Assembly: GCF_026191725.2 (NCBI RefSeq)
Contig: NZ_CP120863.1
Coordinates: 124,001-188,000 of the forward strand
Length of the DNA stretch: 64,000 nt
Origin: Roseibium porphyridii
GTDB lineage: Bacteria > Pseudomonadota > Alphaproteobacteria > Rhizobiales > Stappiaceae
Reading direction: 5' to 3'
Position 1 is the stretch's first letter. Each line of letters begins with the position of its first letter. Positions 13,125-25,286 of the stretch are shown here, piece after piece. The notes below the pieces were generated by a model. That model had not been told where the DNA came from, did not search any database, and saw only the letters and a program-made list of their open reading frames with translations. Position numbers and translations under genes: made by a program.

Positions 13125-16100
13125 ATGACCCAGAACAACGCAGGGGATCTTGGGATACAAAAGGGGGAGCGCCGCCAGCTCACTGCCCTCTTCTATGATC
13201 TGGTCGGTTCGACCTCCATGGTCACGAATATGGACCTGGAAGACTACCGGGAAGTGCAGCAGGCGCTGCACCAGGCTGCCCACCATGCCATCGCAGGGCA
13301 TGGCGGCCATCTCGATCTTTTGATGGGCGATGGCGGATCGGCCTATTTCGGCTATCCGATTGCAGACGAAGACGCCCCTCAACGCGCCGTGGCTGCGGGT
13401 CTCGCGATCCTGAAAGAGCGTGCCGACATCCAAAAACGCTTTGATTGCGATATTCAGGTCAGGGTTGGTGTCGCCACGGGACCAGCTGTTTCAGGACCCG
13501 CGGGAAGCGGGGCGCTGGCGGACCGGGAGGAAATCATCGGCATTGCGCCCACGCTTGCCGCCCGCATTCAAGGCATCGCACAAGTTGGGACCGTAGCCGT
13601 TTCAAACGCCACCTACCGGGCAACGCGGCGCATCTACCATTATGAAAGTCTCGGTGCCCATTCCCTGAAGGGGTTCGATCAACCGCAAAGCCTCTGGCAA
13701 CCTCTTGGGCGCCGCGAGACAGTTGACCGGTTTGAGAAACTTCGGGACGCCGGACAACCATTTCTGGCAAGACGAGATGAGCTGGAGGAAGCGACCGACC
13801 GGTGGCAACAAGCTTCCCACGGCGAGGGCCAGGTGCTCTACGTTCATGGCGAACCCGGGATTGGAAAGTCCCGGCTGTCGTTTCAGGTTGCACAGCAGGC
13901 CCGGGATGAAGGAGCACATCTTCTGGATTTCCAGTGCGAACCTGAGTGCCGTGACATTCCGTTTTCGCCCTTTGTCAAAAGTCTGCGTGCCGAAATCAGA
14001 AGGTACGACCCTTCATTTGATTTTGAAACGCCTTCAGCTGAGGCCATTGCAGACGTTCTGTCCCTTCCAGGAAATCAGTCGCCAGAGTTTTATAAAGCAC
14101 TTGCGTTTCTGCTGTCGCCTTCACCTCAGCAAGATGATGCTGACCCGCATCCTGCCTCTTCTGTCGACACGCTGGTTGATGCAGTTATGGCCATTGCCAG
14201 TGCAAAGCCCTGTGTCATCAAACTTGAAGACCTGCACTGGGCCGACAGCCAGACGATTGAGGTGCTGGAACACCTCCTCGACCGGATTGCATCAGCTCCG
14301 GTCTTCATCGTGGTGACATCGCGCGAGCGGCCCGAAACCAAGTGGACCGAACTTCCTCACTTTTCCAAGCTGCGCCTGTCGCGACTGGGTGAAGACAGCA
14401 TCATTGAATTGATCGGAAACGTTGCAGGGGCTGCAGCATTGTCACCGCGCCTGGCCCACGCCATTGCTGCGCGTTGTGAGGGCGTACCCTTGTTTGCCGA
14501 AGAACTGACGCGCTTCGTGGTAGACCGCGGCGCGGAAAAAATGTCGGACGAGAGTGCCTGGGAGTCCCTCTTTGATTCAGAAGAGACCGCCAGCCTTCAA
14601 GATCTGCTGGCTGCGCGGCTAGCAGCGTTGGGCAAAGCCAAGATCGTCGCCCAGGCCGCAAGCGTGATCGGCAGAAGTTTCAATATTCTGACGCTTGTTG
14701 CTCTGCTGGCATCTACCGGCACACCGGCTTCTGCGGACGAAAGCCTCAACCAGCTCATGGCGGGCGGTTTCATCGAAAAGCATTCAAACGAGGCGGAACC
14801 GGCATACCGTTTCCGGCACATGTTGCTGCAGCAGGCCGCATATGCCGGACTGTTGCGCGCGAACCGACGCACATTGCACACAGCGCTCTACAGAATTGCG
14901 ACAGGTAACGAAGCCAGCGGGCAACCGTTTACCAGTGCTGAGCTTGCGGTTCACGCAGAGCAAGCCAGAATGCCTGTCGCGGCGGCCCGGCACTACATTG
15001 ACGCCGCCCGCTCTGCATCTTCCCAGTCTGCACTCAAGGAAGCGCGAACACATTTGACCCGTGCCCGCTCAATTGCGGAAAAGATCAGTGACAAGGCCGT
15101 TGCCGCTGAGCTTGAGCTGGAAATCGTCAAACTGCTCGGTCCAGTTGTTGCCACGATGGATGGAACCGGTTCGGAGGAAGCATCAGCTCTCTACCAACGC
15201 GGCGTGGAGCTTTTGCATGAAACGCCCGAGACCCATCGTGCGACCGGGTTTCCGCTCTATTGGGGTTGGTGGTTCACAGCCGCAAATTTCAAGGAACAAC
15301 GCGAACGGGCTGAAACCATTCTGAGCGATCTGACGGGTGTCAACGACAAGGAAATCGAGCTACAGGCCCACCATTGCCGATGGGCTACCGCGTTCAATCT
15401 TGGCAATCACAATGATTGCCTGGAGGCCATATCCAAAGGGCTTGATCTTTATAGCGAAGATGAAGCGCTGGAACACAGAACCCGATATGGTGGCCACGAT
15501 GCCCGAGTTTGTGGTCTCGGCGAAAAAGCCTTGTCCTCCTGGTTCATTGGGCAAACGGAATCTGCCGTTTCTCATATGGAACAATCGGACGCCTGGGCCA
15601 GGCACATTGACCATGTCGGCAGCAACTGTCACGCGCTTGATATCGGCATCATGCTTCATCGTTACAGGGGTGATGTCGACCGGGTGGCAAGTCTTGCAAG
15701 GCGTATGAAAACAGCAGCCGTGGAGCACGACCTCAAATCACTGGAGGCCAAGAGCCTGATCTTTGCAGGCTGGTCACAGGGAATGTCGGGAGACCCCGAA
15801 CGTGGTCGCGCCAACCTGACAGAAGGTTTGTCCATACAACAGGAAATCGGCACGGAAGAAGATTTTCCCGTTTATCTTGAGATGGCAGGCGAACTCGACG
15901 CAATGCTGGGCCGGTTTGACAACGGCTTGGCCGTTTTGAGCTCCGCGATTGAACGCGCTGAAGCAACGGGCCATGCCTTCTGGCTTGCAGAACTCTACAG
16001 GCGCCGCGCCCGCCTTGGCGCCAGAGCCGGATCGGGAGCAGACCAGATTCTGACAGACCTCGCCAAGGCCGAAGATGTCGCCTTGAACCAGAATGCAAAA

Positions 16101-16256
16101 GTACTGGTCTTACGGGCCTTGGCAGACTTGGTGATGCTGCAGCCTGACAAAGCAACACCAGGACATTTGGAGCGGGCGCGGCGCATTCTGCAGGAATTGG
16201 AACAAGGTAGCGAAAAAGCTCGCATATCAGCCCTTTTGGCGAGCCGCCTGAGCTGA
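13125..16256 (+). CDS. Class III cyclase-like/AAA ATPase/TPR regulatory protein
   Basis: A 1043-residue multidomain protein. Residues 15-195 form a class III nucleotidyl cyclase domain with the metal Asp residues in FYDLVGST (D25) and MGDGGSAYFGYP (D69). The transition-state pair, usually N-x3-R in PNLAARL, reads PTLAARI (T143, R147), so the Asn is missing and activity is doubtful. A STAND-type AAA ATPase follows, with Walker A GEPGIGKSR (242-250) and Walker B VIKLEDLHWAD (365-374). The C-terminal half (about 600-1043) is helical and TPR-like. It lies four bases before the ycaO-like gene and is probably the operon's first gene. The architecture is common among signalling ATPases; a regulatory or sensing role for the YcaO/TfuA genes is inferred. 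Confidence 0.88.
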   Translation: MTQNNAGDLGIQKGERRQLTALFYDLVGSTSMVTNMDLEDYREVQQALHQAAHHAIAGHGGHLDLLMGDGGSAYFGYPIADEDAPQRAVAAGLAILKERADIQKRFDCDIQVRVGVATGPAVSGPAGSGALADREEIIGIAPTLAARIQGIAQVGTVAVSNATYRATRRIYHYESLGAHSLKGFDQPQSLWQPLGRRETVDRFEKLRDAGQPFLARRDELEEATDRWQQASHGEGQVLYVHGEPGIGKSRLSFQVAQQARDEGAHLLDFQCEPECRDIPFSPFVKSLRAEIRRYDPSFDFETPSAEAIADVLSLPGNQSPEFYKALAFLLSPSPQQDDADPHPASSVDTLVDAVMAIASAKPCVIKLEDLHWADSQTIEVLEHLLDRIASAPVFIVVTSRERPETKWTELPHFSKLRLSRLGEDSIIELIGNVAGAAALSPRLAHAIAARCEGVPLFAEELTRFVVDRGAEKMSDESAWESLFDSEETASLQDLLAARLAALGKAKIVAQAASVIGRSFNILTLVALLASTGTPASADESLNQLMAGGFIEKHSNEAEPAYRFRHMLLQQAAYAGLLRANRRTLHTALYRIATGNEASGQPFTSAELAVHAEQARMPVAAARHYIDAARSASSQSALKEARTHLTRARSIAEKISDKAVAAELELEIVKLLGPVVATMDGTGSEEASALYQRGVELLHETPETHRATGFPLYWGWWFTAANFKEQRERAETILSDLTGVNDKEIELQAHHCRWATAFNLGNHNDCLEAISKGLDLYSEDEALEHRTRYGGHDARVCGLGEKALSSWFIGQTESAVSHMEQSDAWARHIDHVGSNCHALDIGIMLHRYRGDVDRVASLARRMKTAAVEHDLKSLEAKSLIFAGWSQGMSGDPERGRANLTEGLSIQQEIGTEEDFPVYLEMAGELDAMLGRFDNGLAVLSSAIERAEATGHAFWLAELYRRRARLGARAGSGADQILTDLAKAEDVALNQNAKVLVLRALADLVMLQPDKATPGHLERARRILQELEQGSEKARISALLASRLS

Positions 16257-16260
16257 TGGG

Positions 16261-17454
16261 ATGGATGAAGTCAGCCCAAATCTGGAACTGTTTGACGAAA
16301 TCAGCGCGATATGCCGCAATTCGCCGACTTCGAAGCTCTCGCGGCGCTTTAGCGCTGACGAGTATCTCTCCCGTTTAAAGCCTCATCTGACGTCCTTCGG
16401 CATTTCGCGGCTGGCAGACGTCACCGGTCTTGATCGTATTGGTGTTCCGGTTGTCCAGGCCGTCCGACCGTTGGCGCGATCGAACGCCGTCAACCAGGGC
16501 AAAGGTTTGACCCTTTCGGAGGCTGCCGTCAGCGCAATCATCGAAGCTCTTGAAACCTTTGCCTGCGAATCGCCTGATCAAATCGGTGGCAGAGCATCTC
16601 CAAACGAGATTTATGGGCACGCGGCAATCCACAAGCTTTCCTGTCACTTACCGCCAGAGATGGCTGAAGAGTGGATGGAGAACCCAATTGCGTTTATGCG
16701 CGGAATTGAACCGATGTCGCAGGATATCGTCAGCGTGCCCGCTGCCCTGATCAGTACGGATTATACGCCATCCTCATCTCATGCAGTGTCGCCTTTCGTC
16801 CGCACCACGACCGGACTGGGGGGTGGCGGAAGTCTGGAGGAAGCAATTCAGCATGGGTTCCTCGAGGTTCTGGAGCGGATAAGCACCGAAAAGGCCATGA
16901 CAACGCATGGGTTCTTTGAGAAAAACCGCATTGCGCCCGACACGAATGTCGACGCCTGCACAGACGAGCTCATAATGCAGGTTCAAGATGCCGGTCTGTT
17001 GTTTGCTGCCTATGAGTGCCCACCGGTTGGGCGCTTTCCCGTCGTCTGGGTCAGACTTCTCGATGAGCGTGCTTCAGCAACTTCTCTTCCATTTGCCGCG
17101 GACGGTTTTGCCTGCCGCCCCACCTTTAGCGGAGCACTGCGAGCAGCGCTTTTGGAAAGCATTCAGACACGCGCGTCAGTGATATCAGGCTCCCGCGAAG
17201 ACATAACCCGCCGTTCCTATCCAAGAAATCACGATGATCAACTGATCGCCTTCGAACGGCGGCAAATGAGTAAGACGCCTGCCAATAGTCCATCATTTGC
17301 CGGGAACAATTCAGCAGTGAGTGTGAAGGATTTTACCGAAGCGCTGGCAGAGGCAGGTTTGACCTCGGCTATTGTGCCCGTCCTTGCTCTTGAAGACGTT
17401 CCGCTGTTCATCGTCCGGGTGGTGCCGCTGGTCGGCCAGCGTTGGAGGGCATGA
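16261..17454 (+). CDS. YcaO-domain cyclodehydratase/thioamidation-type enzyme
   Basis: YcaO enzymes use ATP to activate peptide backbone amides, giving azolines, thioamides or amidines. The 397-residue protein shows the ATP-site pattern: SAIIEALE (91-98), TTGLGGGGSLEEA (183-195) followed by FLEVLERIS with E202, E205 and R206, and ALLESIQTR (296-304) with SGSRED (309-314). There is no proline-rich PxPxP end as in azoline-forming YcaO proteins; it stops at VGQRWRA. The stop overlaps the start of tfuA (TGATG), and YcaO-TfuA pairs are known from thioamide formation (McrA, thioviridamide) and trifolitoxin-type clusters. A thioamidation-like or related backbone modification is the best guess; the substrate is unknown. 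The ATG or a nearby start follows the cyclase stop closely. Confidence 0.9.
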   Translation: MDEVSPNLELFDEISAICRNSPTSKLSRRFSADEYLSRLKPHLTSFGISRLADVTGLDRIGVPVVQAVRPLARSNAVNQGKGLTLSEAAVSAIIEALETFACESPDQIGGRASPNEIYGHAAIHKLSCHLPPEMAEEWMENPIAFMRGIEPMSQDIVSVPAALISTDYTPSSSHAVSPFVRTTTGLGGGGSLEEAIQHGFLEVLERISTEKAMTTHGFFEKNRIAPDTNVDACTDELIMQVQDAGLLFAAYECPPVGRFPVVWVRLLDERASATSLPFAADGFACRPTFSGALRAALLESIQTRASVISGSREDITRRSYPRNHDDQLIAFERRQMSKTPANSPSFAGNNSAVSVKDFTEALAEAGLTSAIVPVLALEDVPLFIVRVVPLVGQRWRA

Positions 17455-18212
17455 TGCAGGCTAAGCGTCCTCTCGTCGTTTTCATCGGCCCGAGTTTACC
17501 CCCCGAAGGCCTTCCTGAGGCACTCCAGGCCGATGTACGGCCACCGGCAGCCCAGGGAGACATTGCTGCCGTATCGCTTGAGGCAAAGGACTGCGTCATT
17601 GCTCTGATCGACGGTGTCTTTCAAGGAGCTCCGGCCGTCAGGCACAAGGAGATCCTCTGGGCGATCGATCGCGGCGCCACCATTTTTGGTGCGGCCAGCA
17701 TGGGCGCTCTCAGAGCCGCTGAATTATCGAGCTTTGGGATGCACGGGCGAGGGCTCATCTATCGGTGGTTCCGGCGAAATGCCCTTGCACCAGATGACGC
17801 GGTCGCGGTCCTTCACACGCCAGAAGAACTCGGTGCGGTCGCGATCACCGATTCCCTTGTCGATTTGCGCATTCGTTTCAAGCAATCGCGAAAGGAAGGC
17901 CAAATCACAGCGTGTCAGGAAAGCGCTCTGGTGACTGCGGCTTTTCAGCTTCACTACACGGAACGGCACCTGAAAGCCGTGTTGGCTACCGCTCGGGATA
18001 ATGGGGCGAACATTACGATTTCAGATCTGGCGAAGCCCGATTGCACTCAGAAGCAACTTGATGCGCAACTTCTACTAGATGAACTTACTGATCGCCAGAA
18101 ATCCGGCCTCTGGCCTCTTCCCACACCTGGAGCGGCGTTCGTGCCAACAGACGCGTTTCTGCAGGATCTCGCAGACGCGGGATTTTCATTGGACAGCTTC
18201 TCAGGTGCTTGA
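17454..18212 (+). CDS. TfuA-like protein, partner of YcaO
   Basis: TfuA proteins accompany YcaO enzymes and are thought to deliver sulfur or otherwise enable thioamidation. The family blocks are clear: VVFIGPSLP near the N-terminus, then RGATIFGAASMGALRAAEL and FGMHGRGLIYRWF. The ATG at 17454 is preferred because GGAGGG lies five bases upstream and the start overlaps the YcaO stop as TGATG; two other in-frame ATGs lie up to 12 bases earlier. At 252 residues it is close to usual TfuA length. Tight coupling to YcaO implies equimolar production and a shared reaction. After it comes a 168-bp spacer before the metallopeptidase. Confidence 0.88.
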   Translation: MQAKRPLVVFIGPSLPPEGLPEALQADVRPPAAQGDIAAVSLEAKDCVIALIDGVFQGAPAVRHKEILWAIDRGATIFGAASMGALRAAELSSFGMHGRGLIYRWFRRNALAPDDAVAVLHTPEELGAVAITDSLVDLRIRFKQSRKEGQITACQESALVTAAFQLHYTERHLKAVLATARDNGANITISDLAKPDCTQKQLDAQLLLDELTDRQKSGLWPLPTPGAAFVPTDAFLQDLADAGFSLDSFSGA

Positions 18213-18380
18213 TAGTCTTTTAATAATTCCCCTGCGGAAGGTTCAAACAGTACGGCAAAAACATCTTTTTTGATGCTGTGCGGGAAGTGGAGAAACAATT
18301 TAGGCGCGCGCGCAACAAGAGATTGTGACCAACACCGGTTTCCAGGCCGGTTGTAAAAATACCGGATTTCAGAGGTTGAA

Positions 18381-19589
18381 TTGAGTATCTATCTCGACCA
18401 GGAAACCATCTCACCTGAAACGGGCCGTCTCGGCACCCGGTTTCTTCTGTATCCGCAGGTGCCGCACCTGGCCGGTTATGAAAAACCGGAAACCGTCTGG
18501 ATCAGCACGTCGCCGAACGAGATTCAGCCAGGACCGGCTGACCGCCGCATGTATGTGGCAGATCCGCTTTTTGAAAAGCCTGTTTACGAGTATCCCTTCC
18601 AGCCTCCTTTTACGGGCGAACAACACCCGCCGGCAGAAGCGGGGCCAGACGGACATTTCGATCATCTGGACCCATCAAGCCGCCAATTTGTCTGCGCCCA
18701 TGTGTTTGCTTCACTCAGACGCGTGCTCGACATCTGGGAAAGCTATCTCGGGCATGAGGTTGTCTGGCATTTCTCGCAAACCTATGAACGGCTTGAGATC
18801 ATTCCATTCGTAAGTTGGAATAATGCCCAGTCGGGATATGGCTACATGGAGTTCGGTACCGAGTTGAGTGACCGGGAAACGGTCTATCCATATGCCTTGA
18901 ACTTCGATGTCATCGCGCATGAATTCGGTCATGCGCTCATTTTTGCGGAAATGGGGACACCCGTCGGCGGGAACGCCAACCGTGAATATTTCGGTTATCA
19001 CGAGAGCGTATCGGACCTGATCGCACTCATTTCGCTTCTTCATTTCGACAGCGTGCTCGACCGGCTGCTGCGCTCGACCCGCGGCAACCTTCTGACCATG
19101 AACGAACTAAACCGGATAGCGGAGTTGTCCGGTGACCGACAGATTCGGACTGCCAGCAACGACCGGAAAATGAGCACCGTCACAGACGCCGTGCACGATC
19201 TGTCTAAGCCCTTTACCGGCGCGATATTCGATACCCTTGTAGAGATCTATCACCACAATGCCGTAGACGGAAACTTGGTCGATCTTCCGGAAAGTATTTC
19301 GCATGACCGGCTGTTCGAGCTCGGCCATCATGAAATCGAGCTGATTGGACACCGGTTTGCCGATGCCTTCAACGCACGTGAATTTTTGCTGAAATCCGCG
19401 CTTGCAAATGCGCGAGACCTCATGGGATCCGCAATCGCACGATCCTGGAGCGCACTCAATCCCGACACACTCAACTATGCACTGGCCGGCGCTGCAATTG
19501 CCGACCAGTTGGATGCGCTTGGCAATTCTGCTGCCGGGGACATCTTGATGGAAAACCTGGCATGGCGGGAAATTCTGGTGAGAACCTGA
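18381..19589 (+). CDS. Zinc metallopeptidase of gluzincin (thermolysin-like) type
   Basis: A 402-residue protein with the zinc motif HEFGH at 180-184 and a likely third ligand Glu208 in YHESVSDLIAL, the ExxxD arrangement of M4-like gluzincins. No signal peptide or membrane segment is evident, so it seems cytoplasmic. The TTG start at 18381 has AGAGG five bases upstream. It follows ycaO-tfuA on the same strand. In RiPP clusters a peptidase commonly removes the leader peptide, so that role is possible, but degradation of another target is equally open. The subfamily is not one I can name; catalytic residues are clear. Confidence 0.75.
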   Translation: MSIYLDQETISPETGRLGTRFLLYPQVPHLAGYEKPETVWISTSPNEIQPGPADRRMYVADPLFEKPVYEYPFQPPFTGEQHPPAEAGPDGHFDHLDPSSRQFVCAHVFASLRRVLDIWESYLGHEVVWHFSQTYERLEIIPFVSWNNAQSGYGYMEFGTELSDRETVYPYALNFDVIAHEFGHALIFAEMGTPVGGNANREYFGYHESVSDLIALISLLHFDSVLDRLLRSTRGNLLTMNELNRIAELSGDRQIRTASNDRKMSTVTDAVHDLSKPFTGAIFDTLVEIYHHNAVDGNLVDLPESISHDRLFELGHHEIELIGHRFADAFNAREFLLKSALANARDLMGSAIARSWSALNPDTLNYALAGAAIADQLDALGNSAAGDILMENLAWREILVRT

Positions 19590-19630
19590 CATGCCGTCGA
19601 CAACCTGAATTCCCAAAGGGGGGAAGATAA

Positions 19631-20104
19631 ATGAGCGATCAACTGCCGACCATCCTATCCATACCGCCGTATGATCCTGCGGAAATTATTCTCATTGGAA
19701 GCAACATTGCCGGCAGCGGCAGCAAGACGGTGGCCGAGGTCAAGATCGAGTCCGGCGGCAGCCCGGATAGTCGGCTGACCATCCAGTTGATGGACACGGG
19801 CGCTGATCAGCAGATCGCATTGATACGGGCCTATGTTTATGAAGGCAACTATTACGAGTTGCCGAAGCCTAAGATCATGGTGGTCACGGGTGACGCAACC
19901 GATATCCCAGGCGACTACGTTCCCAAAAACCGCAAGCTTCAGTTCTGGCGTATGAACAAGCTCAACAGAACGACGGAAATCTCGGTAGAAGACGGATTGC
20001 TTGAAACACTTGTTCTGGAAGCCAACATGCCTGGTCGAAGGTCGCCAAATTCCTATGCCGCCAACATGCAAATGGCGCATAAATCTGGAAGGCTGACGTC
20101 ATAA
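19631..20104 (+). CDS. Unrecognised 157-residue acidic beta-rich protein
   Basis: No family recognised. The protein starts MSDQLPTILSIPPYDPAEI, has no Cys, signal peptide or membrane helix, and alternates short hydrophobic strands (IILIGSNIAGSG, SRLTIQLMDTG, QIALIRAYVYEG, KIMVVTGDATDIPG), which suggests a compact beta-sandwich. A very strong ribosome binding site (AAAGGGGGGAAG) lies six bases before the ATG, so it may be made in quantity. It is 41 bp after the metallopeptidase and probably in the same transcript. It may be the substrate, carrier or inhibitor of the modifying enzymes; nothing in the sequence decides this. Confidence 0.7.
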   Translation: MSDQLPTILSIPPYDPAEIILIGSNIAGSGSKTVAEVKIESGGSPDSRLTIQLMDTGADQQIALIRAYVYEGNYYELPKPKIMVVTGDATDIPGDYVPKNRKLQFWRMNKLNRTTEISVEDGLLETLVLEANMPGRRSPNSYAANMQMAHKSGRLTS

Positions 20105-20167
20105 GCCCTGCCCTGTAGACACGAATTGCCAAATCGCGCTGAGGTCATCGCAGAAAGCCCAAAGGGC

Positions 20168-20281
20168 ATGGCTACCGATGGCTGTTCGGCAAACAAGATA
20201 GCAATGCCAAAAACGTCTTCTGGTAAGTGCGTGTGCTCTTTGACGCTGACACTACCGCCCGCACCGGCCCAGAAGCATTGA
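20168..20281 (+). CDS. Possible 37-residue Cys/Ser/Thr-rich peptide
   Basis: A short frame between the two unrecognised proteins begins ATGGCTACCGATGGC and encodes 37 residues. The second half is dense in modifiable residues: PKTSSGKCVCSLTLTL, then a Pro-Ala end. There is a further Cys near the N-terminus. It ends 22 bp before the next gene. The upstream sequence AAAGCCCAAAGGGC gives only a poor ribosome binding site. Composition and position suit a RiPP precursor of the YcaO/TfuA enzymes, but a frame this short can arise by chance, so this is a candidate rather than a call. Confidence 0.2.
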   Translation: MATDGCSANKIAMPKTSSGKCVCSLTLTLPPAPAQKH

Positions 20282-20303
20282 GGACGAGGAGGATCAAGTC
20301 GCG

Positions 20304-20711
20304 ATGTCCGATGACAAAAAGCCTTTTTGCGGAACCTATGAAGTCGGTCAGATCAGGATCACGGCACTCGACGGCCAGGAAAGCCTTGCCAAAGGCGTTG
20401 TGCCAGGCGAGATGACCGTGACGTCGGCTGAATTCTCCTATGTACCCAACACCCCTGACGAAACCGCTCTCGACGTTTCCATCGAGGAGTTTGCGACCTT
20501 CAACAGCTCAGGTGACAGGATCGTTCATATCGAGGACCTGAAGCTGCTCTTACAAAGCGACACCAGCTATTGGGCAACTGAAGACGTCAAAGCAGCCTTC
20601 ACAGTCGAAGACGCTTTCGAAATGTCCGTCAAGATGCGTGCGGATAAGTTGTCTCTAGCCCCAGGCCGTCTTTACGTCCGTTTCCATTGCGAAAAAGGCA
20701 GCGAGGGGTAA
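20304..20711 (+). CDS. Unrecognised 135-residue acidic protein
   Basis: No family recognised. It begins MSDDKKPFCGTYEVGQIRIT, is strongly acidic and appears rich in beta strands (MTVTSAEFSYVPN, RLYVRFHC). There are two Cys, one near each end (C9, C129), and no signal peptide or membrane segment. GAGGAGG about ten bases upstream supports the ATG. It is the last gene of the plus-strand cluster and converges on the STAS gene with a 72-bp gap. Like the 157-residue protein two frames upstream it starts with MSD and is cytoplasmic; the two may form a pair. Confidence 0.65.
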   Translation: MSDDKKPFCGTYEVGQIRITALDGQESLAKGVVPGEMTVTSAEFSYVPNTPDETALDVSIEEFATFNSSGDRIVHIEDLKLLLQSDTSYWATEDVKAAFTVEDAFEMSVKMRADKLSLAPGRLYVRFHCEKGSEG

Positions 20712-20783: not shown

Positions 20784-21122
20784 TCAGGAAATCGTCAGTT
20801 CGAGCGCGGGGTGCAGGCGTTGAAGGTTGCGGAGGGACTTGGATTGCCAGGGGATGCTCTTGGAGCCAAGAACGCGGACGCCGACTTCCGGTTGTTTCCG
20901 GATCTCGATGGTGAATTTCGCAAAGAGGTTGATGCCGGAGCTGTTCAAGAACTCAAGTCCGGTCAGGTCAAGCGTGATGAGATCGGGTTTGGACCCGAGT
21001 ACGGAGTTCATGATTTCAAGTATCGGCGCATAGGCTTCCGTGCCTGAAAGCCGCATGGTGCCTTCATAGTGGATGGACGCACCTTCAGTCCAAACGCGGT
21101 AATCGTTGGTGCTGATTTCCAT
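20784..21122 (-). CDS. STAS-domain anti-sigma-antagonist-like protein (slr1659 type)
   Basis: A small single-domain STAS protein (112 residues) like SpoIIAA, the phosphorylatable partner in partner-switching circuits. The phosphoacceptor loop reads LEFLNSSGINLFAKF with Ser61/Ser62 intact. The protein should be phosphorylated by the adjacent HATPase kinase and dephosphorylated by the SpoIIE phosphatase. The pairing with the preceding HATPase gene matches the slr1658/slr1659 pair described from cyanobacteria. It is the last gene of a five-gene minus-strand operon, 31 bp downstream of the HATPase. No sigma factor is encoded nearby, so the final target is unknown. Confidence 0.85.
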   Translation of the reverse strand: MEISTNDYRVWTEGASIHYEGTMRLSGTEAYAPILEIMNSVLGSKPDLITLDLTGLEFLNSSGINLFAKFTIEIRKQPEVGVRVLGSKSIPWQSKSLRNLQRLHPALELTIS

Positions 21123-21153
21123 GTTGGTATCTTCCTTTGGAATAAGTCAGCGA

Positions 21154-21699
21154 TCAGGAAAGTCGCAATGAGGCAAACGTAGTCAGCTTTACGCCTTCAC
21201 TTACATGCTCGCGGTGGAAAGACCAGCCCAATTTGGCTTCGTAATCGCTCATGAGCGTAAGCAGGCCCAGGCCTGAGCCGGTCGAGTCGGGATTAAGGGC
21301 ATTTTCTTCGATTTTCTCCAACAAGAGCTCACCGGGTTCGCGCTCCAGAAGTTCGCGCAGAAGCTCCTGGAAACGAGACGCGGTTTCTTTGTCGATCTTG
21401 TTGATAATTTGAATCTCAAACGTTTCACCCTGGAGGCTGCTGTCGATGGCAATGTCACCGCCATATCGAAATTTGACCGCGTTCTCGAGGATCTCGTTGA
21501 TCATGTAGCTGATGCTGTGGCGTGCATCCACCGGATCAACTTCTCCGGGGCATGCCCGGCTGAAATACTCGCCAATGAAATCCGATGTCACGCCGCAATG
21601 ATGCCAGCTGAGTTCCAATGGCTCGGCCATCAGCGTCAGGCAAAACCGCGTCGCGTCGCCACCGTTTGAAGAGTGAGTATGTCCAAAATCTTCAGCCAT
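21154..21699 (-). CDS. HATPase-domain serine-kinase-like regulator (slr1658 type)
   Basis: Bergerat-fold ATP-binding protein of 181 residues, similar to RsbW/SpoIIAB-like kinases. The N box NEILENAVKF at 68-77 keeps the Glu and the Mg-binding Asn73, and the G box is GSGLGLLTLMSDYEAKLG. It most likely phosphorylates the STAS protein encoded just downstream. It starts three bases after the stop of the SpoIIE phosphatase gene, so the phosphatase, kinase and substrate are translated in sequence. An acidic helix around 120-150 is extra to the minimal fold. The kinase role is inferred from family and context. Confidence 0.82.
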   Translation of the reverse strand: MAEDFGHTHSSNGGDATRFCLTLMAEPLELSWHHCGVTSDFIGEYFSRACPGEVDPVDARHSISYMINEILENAVKFRYGGDIAIDSSLQGETFEIQIINKIDKETASRFQELLRELLEREPGELLLEKIEENALNPDSTGSGLGLLTLMSDYEAKLGWSFHREHVSEGVKLTTFASLRLS

Positions 21700-21702
21700 G
21701 AC

Positions 21703-24111
21703 CTACCTGTGCTTCAAAACCACGAGCGTGATATCGTCAAACACCTTGTATTCCCCGATATGCATCTTGACGTCATCGATGACGGCTTCAGCGATGCCCT
21801 TGGCCGATTTGTGGCGATTGCTGTGGGCACTGTCGCTCAACCGGTCCAGGCCAAACATGTTTCCGGCCGCGTTTTCAGCTTCCGTGATACCATCGGTGTG
21901 AAGGATCAGAATATCGTCCGGACCGAAACTCAAATCCAATGTTGCGACAAATGCGGAGATATCTGCTTCCAAACCGACCGGGAACCCGAGATCCATAGTG
22001 TCGATGCGTTCGGTCTCGCCGGTTGATCGGATGATCAGCACTTCTTCATGCTGACCGGACAACGTCACCTTGCCATCAACGTAGTCGACAAATGCAAGGG
22101 TCAGATGTTTGTCGGATTTGGTCCGCGTGATGTTCTTGTAGACGGCCCGGTTGAGCACATCCAGAAACGCGATCGGGTCCTTGTCACCCTTTTCCTGCAA
22201 GGCGCGGGCAACTGACTGAACCATCAGCATCAGCACGCCACTCTCCAAGCCGTGGCCGGTCACATCGCCGATACCCACCTTGATGTGTTCACCATCAAAG
22301 AGAACATCGTAGTAATCGCCGCCCACCTCATCGGCCGGTTCCATGAAGGCGGCAATCTCGATTTGCGGAATGATCTCGAGCTCGCTGCGACGTGGCAGCA
22401 CCATCTCCTGAATGCGTTTGGCGACATCCAGTTCTGCGCCCAGACGCACATTCTCCGACTTGAGCCGCTTGTTAAGCGCACCAATTTCCTTGTTCGCGGT
22501 TTCGAGCTTTTTCGTTCGCTCCTCGACCAGGTTCTCAAGGTTTTCGGTATGGAAACTGATTTCTTCGGCCATGCGGTTGAACGCAAGACCGGCAGCTGCC
22601 ACCTCATCGCGGGTCGGGATATCAACCCGGACGGAATAGTCCTTGTTCTGCAGCGCACGTGCTGCGCCGGCCAGCTGTGACAGGCCTTTGGTGATCCGAC
22701 CGGAAATGGCGTAAACGGCAACAGTCACGATTACCAGACTGATCAGAAGCGCCGCGATCTGCCAATAAACGATCCGCTCCGTCGCCTCGGACAATTCATG
22801 CTGTACAGCCGTCAACGGTGCATAGATTTCGTCCTTGGCAACCATGAAACCAAGGGTCAGATTTTCAGAGACAATCGTTTCGCCATTCCAAAGATTGATG
22901 GGCGAAAGTTCCTTCAGAACAACGATATATCCTTCACCCGTTTCTTCGTTGAAATCGCCATCGCCGCCGAGCGTTATGGAATCGATTACTGTGCCTGTAT
23001 TGTGCGGCAGTTCAAGATTTGCGACCTCGGGGAAACGGCTCTTCCCGAGGAGCCGATCGATCCCGGTCACACCCTGACCTTCACCACCTACAGAGACAAG
23101 ACCAAGCGTTTCGGCACCGGCCTCACTCACGGCAATGACGTTTCCTGCCGACGACGTAAGAAAGCCGAACCCGGTCTCAGCGATCTTTACATTCTCAACC
23201 AGATTGGAGAGCTGATCGAGCGTGATGTCGACAGCCGCCATGCCTGCGACATCCGAACGGTCAGCTGTCCAGAGCGGGTAAAAGAAGCTGACTATGCGAG
23301 CGCCGGTGATTGCATCGATATATGGATCCGTGCCAACGATATCGCGGTCAACCGGCCGATTGGCCGGGTCCTTGATCCAGCTTTGCCAGCCTTCATAGAC
23401 GCCAGGAAAGAAGAAATCCCAGAAGTTGTCTTCGTTGTGGCCGGGATAAAGCTTGTCGAATGTCTGCGCCTGATCCGTATAAGGCGTCGTGCGCATGATC
23501 GGCTTGTCTTTTGGGCCGACATAATACATCTGCAGTTTCGGCGACCCGGTCTTGAGGATACCGGGTGCAATCAGGTTGAAAGCGGAGCTGTCAGAAATCT
23601 GTGCCTCGACCTCAGGCAGCGGATTGCCGTCGTCATCCAGCAGATACCCCCAGACACTGACAACGGATTCTCCCGGTGAATTCTGTGACCAGCCAGCTTG
23701 CGGATTAAAAACAAGTTTGTCGCCAAGCTTGGGGTCTGCTTCGACAGTCCTGCCGACATTGGTGCCGGTCTGAGGATTGTCAATCAAAGTCTGCATGGCA
23801 CCGCCAAGCGCTTCAACTTCGGAAAATACCTGATCGAGCAGCAGATCGGTTCTGAGCGCCGTCGTGTCGATATATGTCCTCAGGTACTCTTCCGTGGCGC
23901 TGGTGAGACCGGTCGCGACCTTCTCGGTCGCGTCGTTGGACAAACGTTGCACATTCCAGATGGCAACGCCGCCGGCCAGCATGAGATCGAACAGAACCGC
24001 CGCGCCGACGACCGCAATGAATTTGGCCCGAAAACTGTGCCTCGAAAACCGGCCAACTGACTGCCCGTCCTGCGGCTCCGGAGTTTCGGTCCCTACATGC
24101 GTGACACTCAT
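21703..24111 (-). CDS. SpoIIE-type PP2C phosphatase with extracytoplasmic sensor and HAMP
   Basis: Membrane receptor of about 802 residues. A first membrane helix lies near 30-55 (AVLFDLMLAGGVAIW). A large extracytoplasmic Cache-like sensor spans about 60-445, and a second helix near 450-470 (IAALLISLVIVTVAVYAI). These are followed by a HAMP region, a coiled coil (about 530-565) and a SpoIIE/PP2C phosphatase with GGDYYDV, GDVTGHG, LHTDGITEA and DDITLVV carrying the metal-binding Asp residues. It should dephosphorylate STAS partners when a ligand binds outside. The start at 24111 overlaps the upstream stop (ATGA); an in-frame ATG at 24138 would lie inside the previous gene. It sits between the two HATPase/STAS pairs. 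Confidence 0.9.
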   Translation of the reverse strand: MSVTHVGTETPEPQDGQSVGRFSRHSFRAKFIAVVGAAVLFDLMLAGGVAIWNVQRLSNDATEKVATGLTSATEEYLRTYIDTTALRTDLLLDQVFSEVEALGGAMQTLIDNPQTGTNVGRTVEADPKLGDKLVFNPQAGWSQNSPGESVVSVWGYLLDDDGNPLPEVEAQISDSSAFNLIAPGILKTGSPKLQMYYVGPKDKPIMRTTPYTDQAQTFDKLYPGHNEDNFWDFFFPGVYEGWQSWIKDPANRPVDRDIVGTDPYIDAITGARIVSFFYPLWTADRSDVAGMAAVDITLDQLSNLVENVKIAETGFGFLTSSAGNVIAVSEAGAETLGLVSVGGEGQGVTGIDRLLGKSRFPEVANLELPHNTGTVIDSITLGGDGDFNEETGEGYIVVLKELSPINLWNGETIVSENLTLGFMVAKDEIYAPLTAVQHELSEATERIVYWQIAALLISLVIVTVAVYAISGRITKGLSQLAGAARALQNKDYSVRVDIPTRDEVAAAGLAFNRMAEEISFHTENLENLVEERTKKLETANKEIGALNKRLKSENVRLGAELDVAKRIQEMVLPRRSELEIIPQIEIAAFMEPADEVGGDYYDVLFDGEHIKVGIGDVTGHGLESGVLMLMVQSVARALQEKGDKDPIAFLDVLNRAVYKNITRTKSDKHLTLAFVDYVDGKVTLSGQHEEVLIIRSTGETERIDTMDLGFPVGLEADISAFVATLDLSFGPDDILILHTDGITEAENAAGNMFGLDRLSDSAHSNRHKSAKGIAEAVIDDVKMHIGEYKVFDDITLVVLKHR

Positions 24112-25286
24112 TTTGGTTTCCGTCCCGAAGCGACCCAAATCGGCCAGCCTGCATATCCCCGTGGATGCTTGGCCGCGAAGATATGGTCCTGGAAACCCTG
24201 CCTGAATTCGCGGATCTGCTCTTCACTGTCACCACGCTCGACAGCCATCTTGCCGGCGTAGACATCTTCCCAGGACTGGATAATATCGGCGAAATCCTGG
24301 GGATCGCCGTCCAGGTTGGTCACCATGAACGATTCCATCTGAATGTCTTCAAGGCCTGCATCGATCAGGTATCGCCGGCTCTTGGGGCCAAGCTCGATAT
24401 CCATGTTGAAATGGGCCCAAAGCCGCGCAACTTCATTGTAGGTGCGCTGGATTGATTCCGACCTCGGCTCACCCAGACAATGGGAGTTTTTCTCGTTGGT
24501 GATGTAGATGCGGCCGCCCGGCTTGCAGATACGCAGCAGCTCCTGAAGGATCAGTTCAGGCCGATCGAACACCTGAAGGGAATGGCGGCAGGTGACGAAG
24601 TCGAACTGGTCGCTTTCCAACAGCATTTCGGACGCATCACCAAACACATAGTCGATGCCGCGAATGCCGAAATCCGTCGCGACCTTGCGCGCATAGTCGA
24701 GACTGGACCGACTGTGATCCAGAGCCACCAGCCGATCGGGCTGAAATTCCTTTTGCAAGAGAACCGCGAAATCCCCGATACCGCAGCAGATGTCTGCCAC
24801 CTGCAATCCGGGTTCCAGGCCATGGCGCTGCAAGATGGCCCGTTCATGGCGCCATGTCAGTTTGGTCTGCGTGCGCAAAATCGGGATAAAGCCACCCTCT
24901 TCAAGGAATGTCTGGCCTGGATAAAACTCGTTATCGTATTCCCCGACGGTGATATTTTCGGACATGGTCTCAAGCACCGCGAATTTGCGGGTGGCCCAAC
25001 CGACCACGCTCGAGGTTGTCACGTGAACTTTCAGATCGCTGCGCCCGCGCACCAGGTCCAGAATCTTGCCGGCGAAGGCATGAAAAGCGACATTGTTCAT
25101 GCGCACCAAGCGGCGAACATTGACATAGAAGCGCCCACTGACGCTGGAAACGGAGCTTTCAAGCGCGGAAATGCAGCTGTTCATTTCCTCGCTGCGCTGC
25201 GGCCTCAAGCTGCCGTGCAATGAAAATTCCTGGTCGTTTTCGTTGAAGTTCCACTGAAACCCTTGCGAAATACTGTCAGCAATCAT
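24108..25286 (-). CDS. Degenerate STAS domain fused to SAM-dependent methyltransferase
   Basis: A two-domain protein of 392 residues. Residues 1-115 resemble the STAS protein of the same operon, but the loop reads RMNNVAFHAF (N65-V66 where the intact copy has Ser-Ser), so the phosphoacceptor is gone. Residues about 150-300 are a class I methyltransferase with VADICCGIGDFAVLL (SAM motif I), VALDHS (acidic loop), FVTCRHSLQVF and LLRICKPGGRIYITNE. The substrate is unknown; UbiE-like small-molecule methylation or protein methylation are both possible. Its start overlaps the stop of the preceding HATPase-like gene (ATGA) and its stop overlaps the phosphatase start. Fusion of partner-switching and methylation domains is the notable feature. 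Confidence 0.8.
   Translation of the reverse strand: MIADSISQGFQWNFNENDQEFSLHGSLRPQRSEEMNSCISALESSVSSVSGRFYVNVRRLVRMNNVAFHAFAGKILDLVRGRSDLKVHVTTSSVVGWATRKFAVLETMSENITVGEYDNEFYPGQTFLEEGGFIPILRTQTKLTWRHERAILQRHGLEPGLQVADICCGIGDFAVLLQKEFQPDRLVALDHSRSSLDYARKVATDFGIRGIDYVFGDASEMLLESDQFDFVTCRHSLQVFDRPELILQELLRICKPGGRIYITNEKNSHCLGEPRSESIQRTYNEVARLWAHFNMDIELGPKSRRYLIDAGLEDIQMESFMVTNLDGDPQDFADIIQSWEDVYAGKMAVERGDSEEQIREFRQGFQDHIFAAKHPRGYAGWPIWVASGRKPK

Follow-up and report, generated by a model that had tools for sequence, protein, structure and literature searches.

In Streptomyces varsoviensis, three genes encoding a precursor, a YcaO protein and a TfuA protein (varAYT) are reported to suffice for production of thiovarsolin B, whose thioamide lies at the Pro–Arg bond of a repeating core that related clusters carry in none to five repeats (PMC6511847). 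More than 500 YcaO–TfuA clusters have been described in Rhizobium (Malit et al. 2021; PMC8120280), and Haft et al. report a large Ser/Thr kinase beside the precursors of a Burkholderia thiazole/oxazole-modified microcin (TOMM; NHLP-Burk; PMC2887384), a kinase that we infer to be the TOMM kinase/cyclase fusion TIGR03903. Here we analyse a 64,000-nucleotide stretch of the 5.9-Mb genome of Roseibium porphyridii (contig NZ_CP120863.1, positions 124,001 to 188,000; hereafter the window), whose close relatives belong to Roseibium/Labrenzia, and describe a conserved five-gene module encoding a cyclase-ATPase, YcaO, TfuA, a gluzincin metallopeptidase and a small protein, SP1. The reading that we favour, with confidence somewhat better than even, is that the module produces SP1 and uses YcaO–TfuA to alter the chemistry of its flexible, basic C-terminal tail.

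A conserved five-gene module with a cyclase partner

All six open reading frames of the locus lie on the plus strand between window positions 13125 and 20711, and their layout bears out the first-pass annotation, which had described six genes in one direction with YcaO and TfuA overlapping and a cyclase four bases before YcaO. The leading gene (13125..16256, +) encodes a 1,043-amino-acid protein joining a class III nucleotidyl cyclase, an AAA_16/STAND ATPase and a TPR-like region (Pfam Guanylate_cyc, 2.3e-10; AAA_16, 2e-21). YcaO, an ATP-dependent backbone amide activator (16261..17454, +; PF02624, 1.4e-42), begins four bases past the cyclase-ATPase stop, and the YcaO stop shares bases with the start ATG of TfuA at 17451 in the sequence ATGA (17451..18212, +; PF07812, 1.3e-39). 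The gluzincin (18381..19589, +) and SP1 (157 amino acids; 19631..20104, +) complete the module.

To define which genes travel together, we compared this locus across genomes. Of 87 genomes from the family, 23 gave a YcaO match, and larger stretches of 17 of these were inspected together with a second YcaO of the window genome. Cyclase-ATPase, YcaO, TfuA, gluzincin and SP1 occur in unchanged order at nine loci (L027–L035), and the order YcaO–TfuA–gluzincin–SP1 recurs at three further loci (L036, L037 and L042). Alignment of the gluzincin against named genomes identified 268 relatives; among the best 80 of these, a set skewed to close relatives and including near-copies, YcaO, TfuA and SP1 were each present at 76 loci, the cyclase at 75 and the complete five genes at 75, and one of the 80 lies on a 3.2-kb contig that has no cyclase. 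Adding 13 loci gave a set of 93, chosen by gluzincin or YcaO likeness and again containing near-copies, in which YcaO, TfuA, gluzincin and SP1 are all present at 87; in the remaining six, four peptidases stand alone and two contigs are truncated.

The same association appears in evenly drawn samples of 190 genomes of the class and 299 of the phylum, which include the window genome and have three genomes in common. Within the class sample a strong gluzincin match occurs in five genomes and adjoins TfuA in all five, although TfuA itself is found in just 11 of the 190 genomes, at 14 places. SP1 is present in four class-sample genomes, each time with gluzincin and TfuA adjoining (4/4), the fifth gluzincin lying at a contig end. 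In the phylum sample every strong gluzincin match (7/7) adjoins TfuA, which occurs in 12 genomes at 18 places. Hypergeometric co-occurrence gives 2.4e-7 for the class and 2.0e-11 for the phylum (4.1e-6 and 5.0e-10 without the window genome), values that are rough because the sampled genomes are related. Together the synteny counts place the arrangement far beyond chance. They support the proposal of the first-pass annotation that this system modifies peptides or proteins and has its own cyclase/NTPase component, and they show it to be co-conserved across Alphaproteobacteria. That annotation had also raised the prospect of peptidase and small proteins occurring apart from YcaO–TfuA, or of an unlinked cyclase; the system was upheld for cyclase, peptidase and SP1, the exceptions being four peptidases that stand alone in distant genomes.

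The module is conserved over many alphaproteobacterial genera and in gammaproteobacterial bins while its flanks vary. Among the compared loci, the genes flanking the window locus are matched only in a same-species genome, on both sides, and in genome G069, on the downstream side; in G069 the TPR gene upstream is some 6 kb more distant. Constancy of five genes between changing flanks reads as an accessory module moving as a unit, and the gluzincin is patchily distributed, present in 14 of 45 Roseibium genomes. We also found 144 plasmid records with a gluzincin match; in the two inspected, the gluzincin bears the label hypothetical protein and has a 'YcaO-like family protein' nearby, and one of these also carries an 'AAA family ATPase' and a 'TfuA-like protein'. 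In Labrenzia sp. DG1229 (L030/L050), gluzincin and SP2, the product of the sixth gene of the locus, are each split over two frames, either through decay or because of a sequencing error. In Microvirga (L102, L104 and L105) the gluzincin is convergent to the other four genes and the SP1 tail is single-copy. The five-gene set is a conserved module, real and widespread, present in many soil and marine bacteria.

A class III cyclase is a regular member of these loci, in one of three arrangements. Using a cyclase-domain profile, we detected a class III cyclase gene no more than 4.5 kb away at all 87 four-gene loci. A different class III cyclase of 597–866 codons lies convergent to SP1 at L036, L037, L042, L125, L126, L138 and L139, and Pfam analysis of four of these seven returned cyclase and TPR domains with no AAA domain; at L103, L108 and L110 it is the ATPase type that is convergent. 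By comparison, a cyclase accompanies 4 of 23 control YcaO–TfuA loci that lack gluzincin and SP1 (0/4 and 4/19). The window protein aligns over residues 7–1003 with positions 275–1265 of the 1,267-position NCBIfam model TIGR03903, scoring 321.8 bits against a cut-off of 705.75, and has no N-terminal kinase domain. Asp25 and Asp69, which we take to be the metal-binding aspartates, are each kept in 71 of 72 homologues, and Arg147 and Lys248, presumably a transition-state residue and the Walker lysine, in 72 of 72. The position that we take to hold the transition-state Asn is Thr143 in the window and is Ala in 42, Asn in 14 and Thr in 9 of the 72 homologues; replacement of Asn by Thr here and by Ala in most relatives leaves the cyclase activity of the ATPase type uncertain.

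Several related layouts were seen beside these. At the alphaproteobacterial loci L144, L145, L147 and L148, a cousin arrangement comprises cyclase-ATPase, YcaO and TfuA, with gluzincin and SP1 absent. The open reading frame between cyclase and YcaO at L145 is a long repeat of DADAGRWAISP/TP-like units, and a short one at L147 ends in a similar motif. A Crp-like regulator, recognised by eye, adjoins TfuA at L147 and L148, a hint of cyclic-nucleotide control. In a further cluster with a repeat-tailed SP1 (L041:10519-13838, −), the cyclase-ATPase is split over two overlapping frames.

SP1 as the candidate substrate

SP1 has no match in Pfam or NCBIfam. An AlphaFold2 model (mean predicted local distance difference test score, pLDDT, 74.9) shows a beta domain at about residues 18–120, with pLDDT below 50 from residue 141 (141–157). 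The tail, approximately residues 131–157 (20021..20101, +), reads ANMPGRRSPNSYAANMQMAHKSGRLTS; it is modelled with low confidence and is probably disordered. In the window protein the tail has an isoelectric point (pI) of 11.7 and the rest of the protein is acidic, at 4.6. All eight SP1 tails tested are basic (pI 9.7–12), with Arg or Lys in each repeat unit.

A profile search identified 228 SP1 relatives, with Sinorhizobium meliloti and Rhizobium leguminosarum among the matches listed. In the main clade N132, P134, G135, R137 and Y142 are kept in 87–92% of 79 sequences, and no position within residues 27–60 exceeds 54%. In a second clade tandem repeats occupy the tail position: (SGARV)n at L036, L037, L125 and L138, (SGGKAY)n at L042, (SRMAMA)n at L103 and L108, and (SKMAAR)n at L110. 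At L041 an 18-base unit occurs 28 times, encoding (AMMQSR)n. Ser and Gly appear in many tail units, Ser not constantly, and no Cys was found in the last 28 residues of SP1 relatives (76 and 120 sequences). We built a YcaO tree from 60 of 86 labelled rows, drawing 22 of 48 main-type rows at random and keeping all others. All seven repeat-labelled rows group to the same side of a supported split, and a single clade unites the 19 Rhizobium-type APQR tails, a pattern to which near-copies contribute.

Translation signals single out the small proteins. The Shine–Dalgarno sequences of SP1 (−11.2 kcal/mol) and SP2 (−11.7 kcal/mol) are the strongest of the six, the others ranging from −1.9 to −9.8, in agreement with the exceptionally strong ribosome binding site that the first-pass annotation had noticed before a small protein. 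Across loci the SP1 signal is stronger than that of the cyclase in 57 of 70, YcaO in 60 of 65, TfuA in 60 of 75 and the gluzincin in 47 of 73. With its beta domain, basic and predicted disordered tail and repeat-tailed relatives, SP1 is best read as the predicted precursor or substrate, and its tail as the predicted modified segment.

SP2 (20304..20711, +) is likewise without a Pfam or NCBIfam match and is modelled by AlphaFold2 as a jelly-roll beta protein (pLDDT 85.9). BLAST detected it at seven of the nine loci L027–L035, and hidden Markov model matches were found solely in Roseibium among 98 loci searched; L042 has another small protein in its position. SP2 is therefore a Roseibium accessory among the searched loci. 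Of the two small proteins earlier called orphans, SP1 is one no longer, having repeat-tailed relatives and a likely role as substrate or precursor. Convergent to SP2, at window positions 20784-24138 (−), lie genes for STAS, HATPase and SpoIIE-like phosphatase proteins that resemble a partner-switching set, the phosphatase being recognised by eye.

Likely chemistry and competing explanations

The YcaO and gluzincin active sites are intact. YcaO residues Glu95, Glu98, Glu202, Glu205, Glu299, Arg304 and Arg312 are kept in 75 of 75 homologues, so that a YcaO with conserved ATP-binding residues overlaps TfuA, as expected of a YcaO–TfuA pair. The sole solved chain matched by YcaO is that of MJ1094 (6pe3), and the sole one matched by TfuA is a TfuA-domain protein (6xp8). 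TfuA-associated YcaO proteins are reported to favour Met in ATP motif 1, His in motif 2 and Ala in motif 3 (PMC8120280); in our own mapping of those positions His198 is present (68/75 homologues), position 94 is Ile here (Met in 37/75) and position 300 is Ser here (Ala in 73/75). The window genome has one ThiS gene. It also has a second YcaO far from the module (L044:9209-10660, −), and the window TfuA is the only TfuA found in it. The gluzincin is thermolysin-like, matching PF01447 (Peptidase_M4) at 17.3 bits (0.0067) against a gathering threshold of 22.4; His180, Glu181, His184, Glu208, Asp212 and His272 are kept in 79 of 79 homologues, comprising the HExxH motif (HEFGH here), downstream Glu ligand and catalytic His of a gluzincin. 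A simple scan found no obvious N-terminal hydrophobic stretch in any of the six proteins, making the cytoplasmic location earlier proposed for the peptidase reasonable. The intact YcaO and gluzincin residues, the solved relatives and the single ThiS gene fit thioamidation, which is probably the modification of the SP1 tail backbone.

These observations suggest a mechanism in which the SP1 beta domain would serve as a large leader docking on YcaO–TfuA. YcaO would activate tail amides using ATP and TfuA would supply sulfide, yielding thioamides. By analogy with the Pro–Arg thioamide of thiovarsolin, the likeliest site would be the bond preceding the Arg or Lys of each unit, making the bonds before K151 and R154 the foremost candidates in the window SP1. 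The gluzincin may then trim or release the tail, and the cyclase-ATPase-TPR protein could sense a signal and time production, either by way of a cyclic nucleotide or as a switch that binds nucleotide. We saw no transporter or immunity family accompanying the module, so its product probably either serves inside the cell or leaves through a general exporter.

Several observations weigh against this account. The cyclase-ATPase is present at four YcaO–TfuA loci without gluzincin or SP1 and is thus not exclusive to the module. Gluzincins without other module genes occur at L107, L113, L123 and L124 (Actinoplanes, a cyanobacterial bin, Fibrisoma and Anaerophilus), showing that the peptidase family exists outside the module too, and the class sample contains two weak gluzincin matches without TfuA. 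Most ribosomally synthesized and post-translationally modified peptides (RiPPs) have variable cores, whereas the main-clade tail, that of the window SP1 among them, is one stretch under strong conservation. On the repeat side of the YcaO tree there are also the single-copy Microvirga loci and the Arg-rich, non-repeat tail of L126, which the equally repeat-free tail of L139 resembles. Pfam matches of the six proteins include no RiPP recognition element-type domain, and scores against the McrA models fall far short of both equivalog cut-offs (TIGR03266, 111.8 against 365; NF033432, 167.1 against 235.2). Finally, a first comparison of ribosome binding sites came out opposite to that given above, a result put down to misplaced SP1 starts.

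The best placed of the alternatives, though unlikely, is that SP1 serves the gluzincin or cyclase-ATPase as adaptor or inhibitor, its tail, repeated or single, being used for binding, while YcaO–TfuA modify another protein. Strong conservation of the main-clade tail would suit such a role, and thioamidation of proteins other than RiPPs has precedent in uL16, the ribosomal protein on which E. coli YcaO acts (PMC13063428), and in McrA (PMC5589413). Against it, SP1 in the class sample was found only adjoining gluzincin and TfuA, repeat-tailed forms are confined to one side of the YcaO tree, and tandem expansion of short units accords better with repeated modification than with one tail used for binding. 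Next in order, and also improbable, SP1 could be the substrate of a different chemistry, with YcaO forming azolines or amidines or trimming the tail. The Ser and Gly of many tail units and the unreached thioamidation cut-offs are compatible with this, but TfuA has been tied to the delivery of sulfide (PMC8939145), MJ1094 is the one solved YcaO matched, and the tails have no Cys and no constant Ser.

Harder still to credit is a role in conflict or defence, in which the STAND-like ATPase/cyclase would sense infection and free the peptidase, with YcaO–TfuA-modified SP1 as guard or antitoxin. A cyclase, an NTPase and a cytoplasmic peptidase do occur here in one patchily distributed set, PADLOC detects a weak likeness of the cyclase to Pycsar cyclases (3.5e-10), and a phage-collection family without assigned function matches the cyclase-ATPase at 1.5e-111. 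But PADLOC found no effector among the six proteins scanned and no match for the other five, the window neighbours look regulatory or, by eye, like cellulose-synthesis genes, and the tail is conserved and not diversifying. A chance neighbourhood of unrelated genes, suggested by flanks that differ between most strains, is refuted by conservation of the five genes over many genera while those flanks change.

Relation to known systems

If SP1 is the substrate, the uncharacterised YcaO–TfuA clusters of rhizobia and marine alphaproteobacteria gain a candidate substrate with a predicted modification site, making the cluster chemistry directly testable. The module further suggests that one type of peptide-modifying machinery regularly includes a cyclase, and that a folded protein can carry a core peptide that grows by tandem repetition. 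A bolder proposal, which we advance tentatively and think doubtful on balance, is that these loci form a distinct class of cyclase-coupled modification of peptide or protein tails, in which a folded carrier presents a basic tail in one to about 28 copies for thioamidation by YcaO–TfuA; the class would occur widely in Alphaproteobacteria, Rhizobium leguminosarum and Sinorhizobium meliloti among them, with the class III cyclase as a regular partner exchanged between architectures. On this proposal the mature tail might act as a signal or cofactor within the cell and not as an antibiotic.

With thiovarsolin the locus shares YcaO and TfuA; the repeating precursor core has a likeness in the tandem-repeat SP1 tails, which lie in relatives of the window SP1 only. 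The thiovarsolin precursor itself is short and is not known to have a folded domain. Thiovarsolin clusters differ further in belonging to Actinobacteria and encoding the heme oxygenase VarO, and the available portion of their description names neither gluzincin nor cyclase (PMC6511847); no heme oxygenase family is among the Pfam and NCBIfam matches of the six window proteins. The McrA pair (TIGR03266 and NF033432) shares the enzyme families, but its substrate is an enzyme subunit. TIGR03903 resembles the cyclase-ATPase in architecture and accompanies a YcaO system, the window protein differing in having no kinase, and the TOMM precursors in the available text of PMC2887384 are nitrile-hydratase-like, which SP1 is not. 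The Rhizobium clusters of Malit et al. probably include the type of module described here, although the available portion of that paper names Nif11-, CCRG-2-, albusnodin- and thiopeptide-like precursors and not SP1, a gluzincin or a cyclase (PMC8120280); the terms 'cyclase' and 'repeat' are absent from its main text. Given that TIGR03903 ties the cyclase-ATPase to TOMM systems and that Rhizobium YcaO–TfuA clusters have already been mined, the earlier statement that no such system had been described was too strong. We found no description of an SP1-like substrate with a regular cyclase partner in the open-licence PubMed Central literature: the YcaO–TfuA enzyme pair is of a known kind, and its candidate substrate and regular cyclase partner appear to be a new combination.

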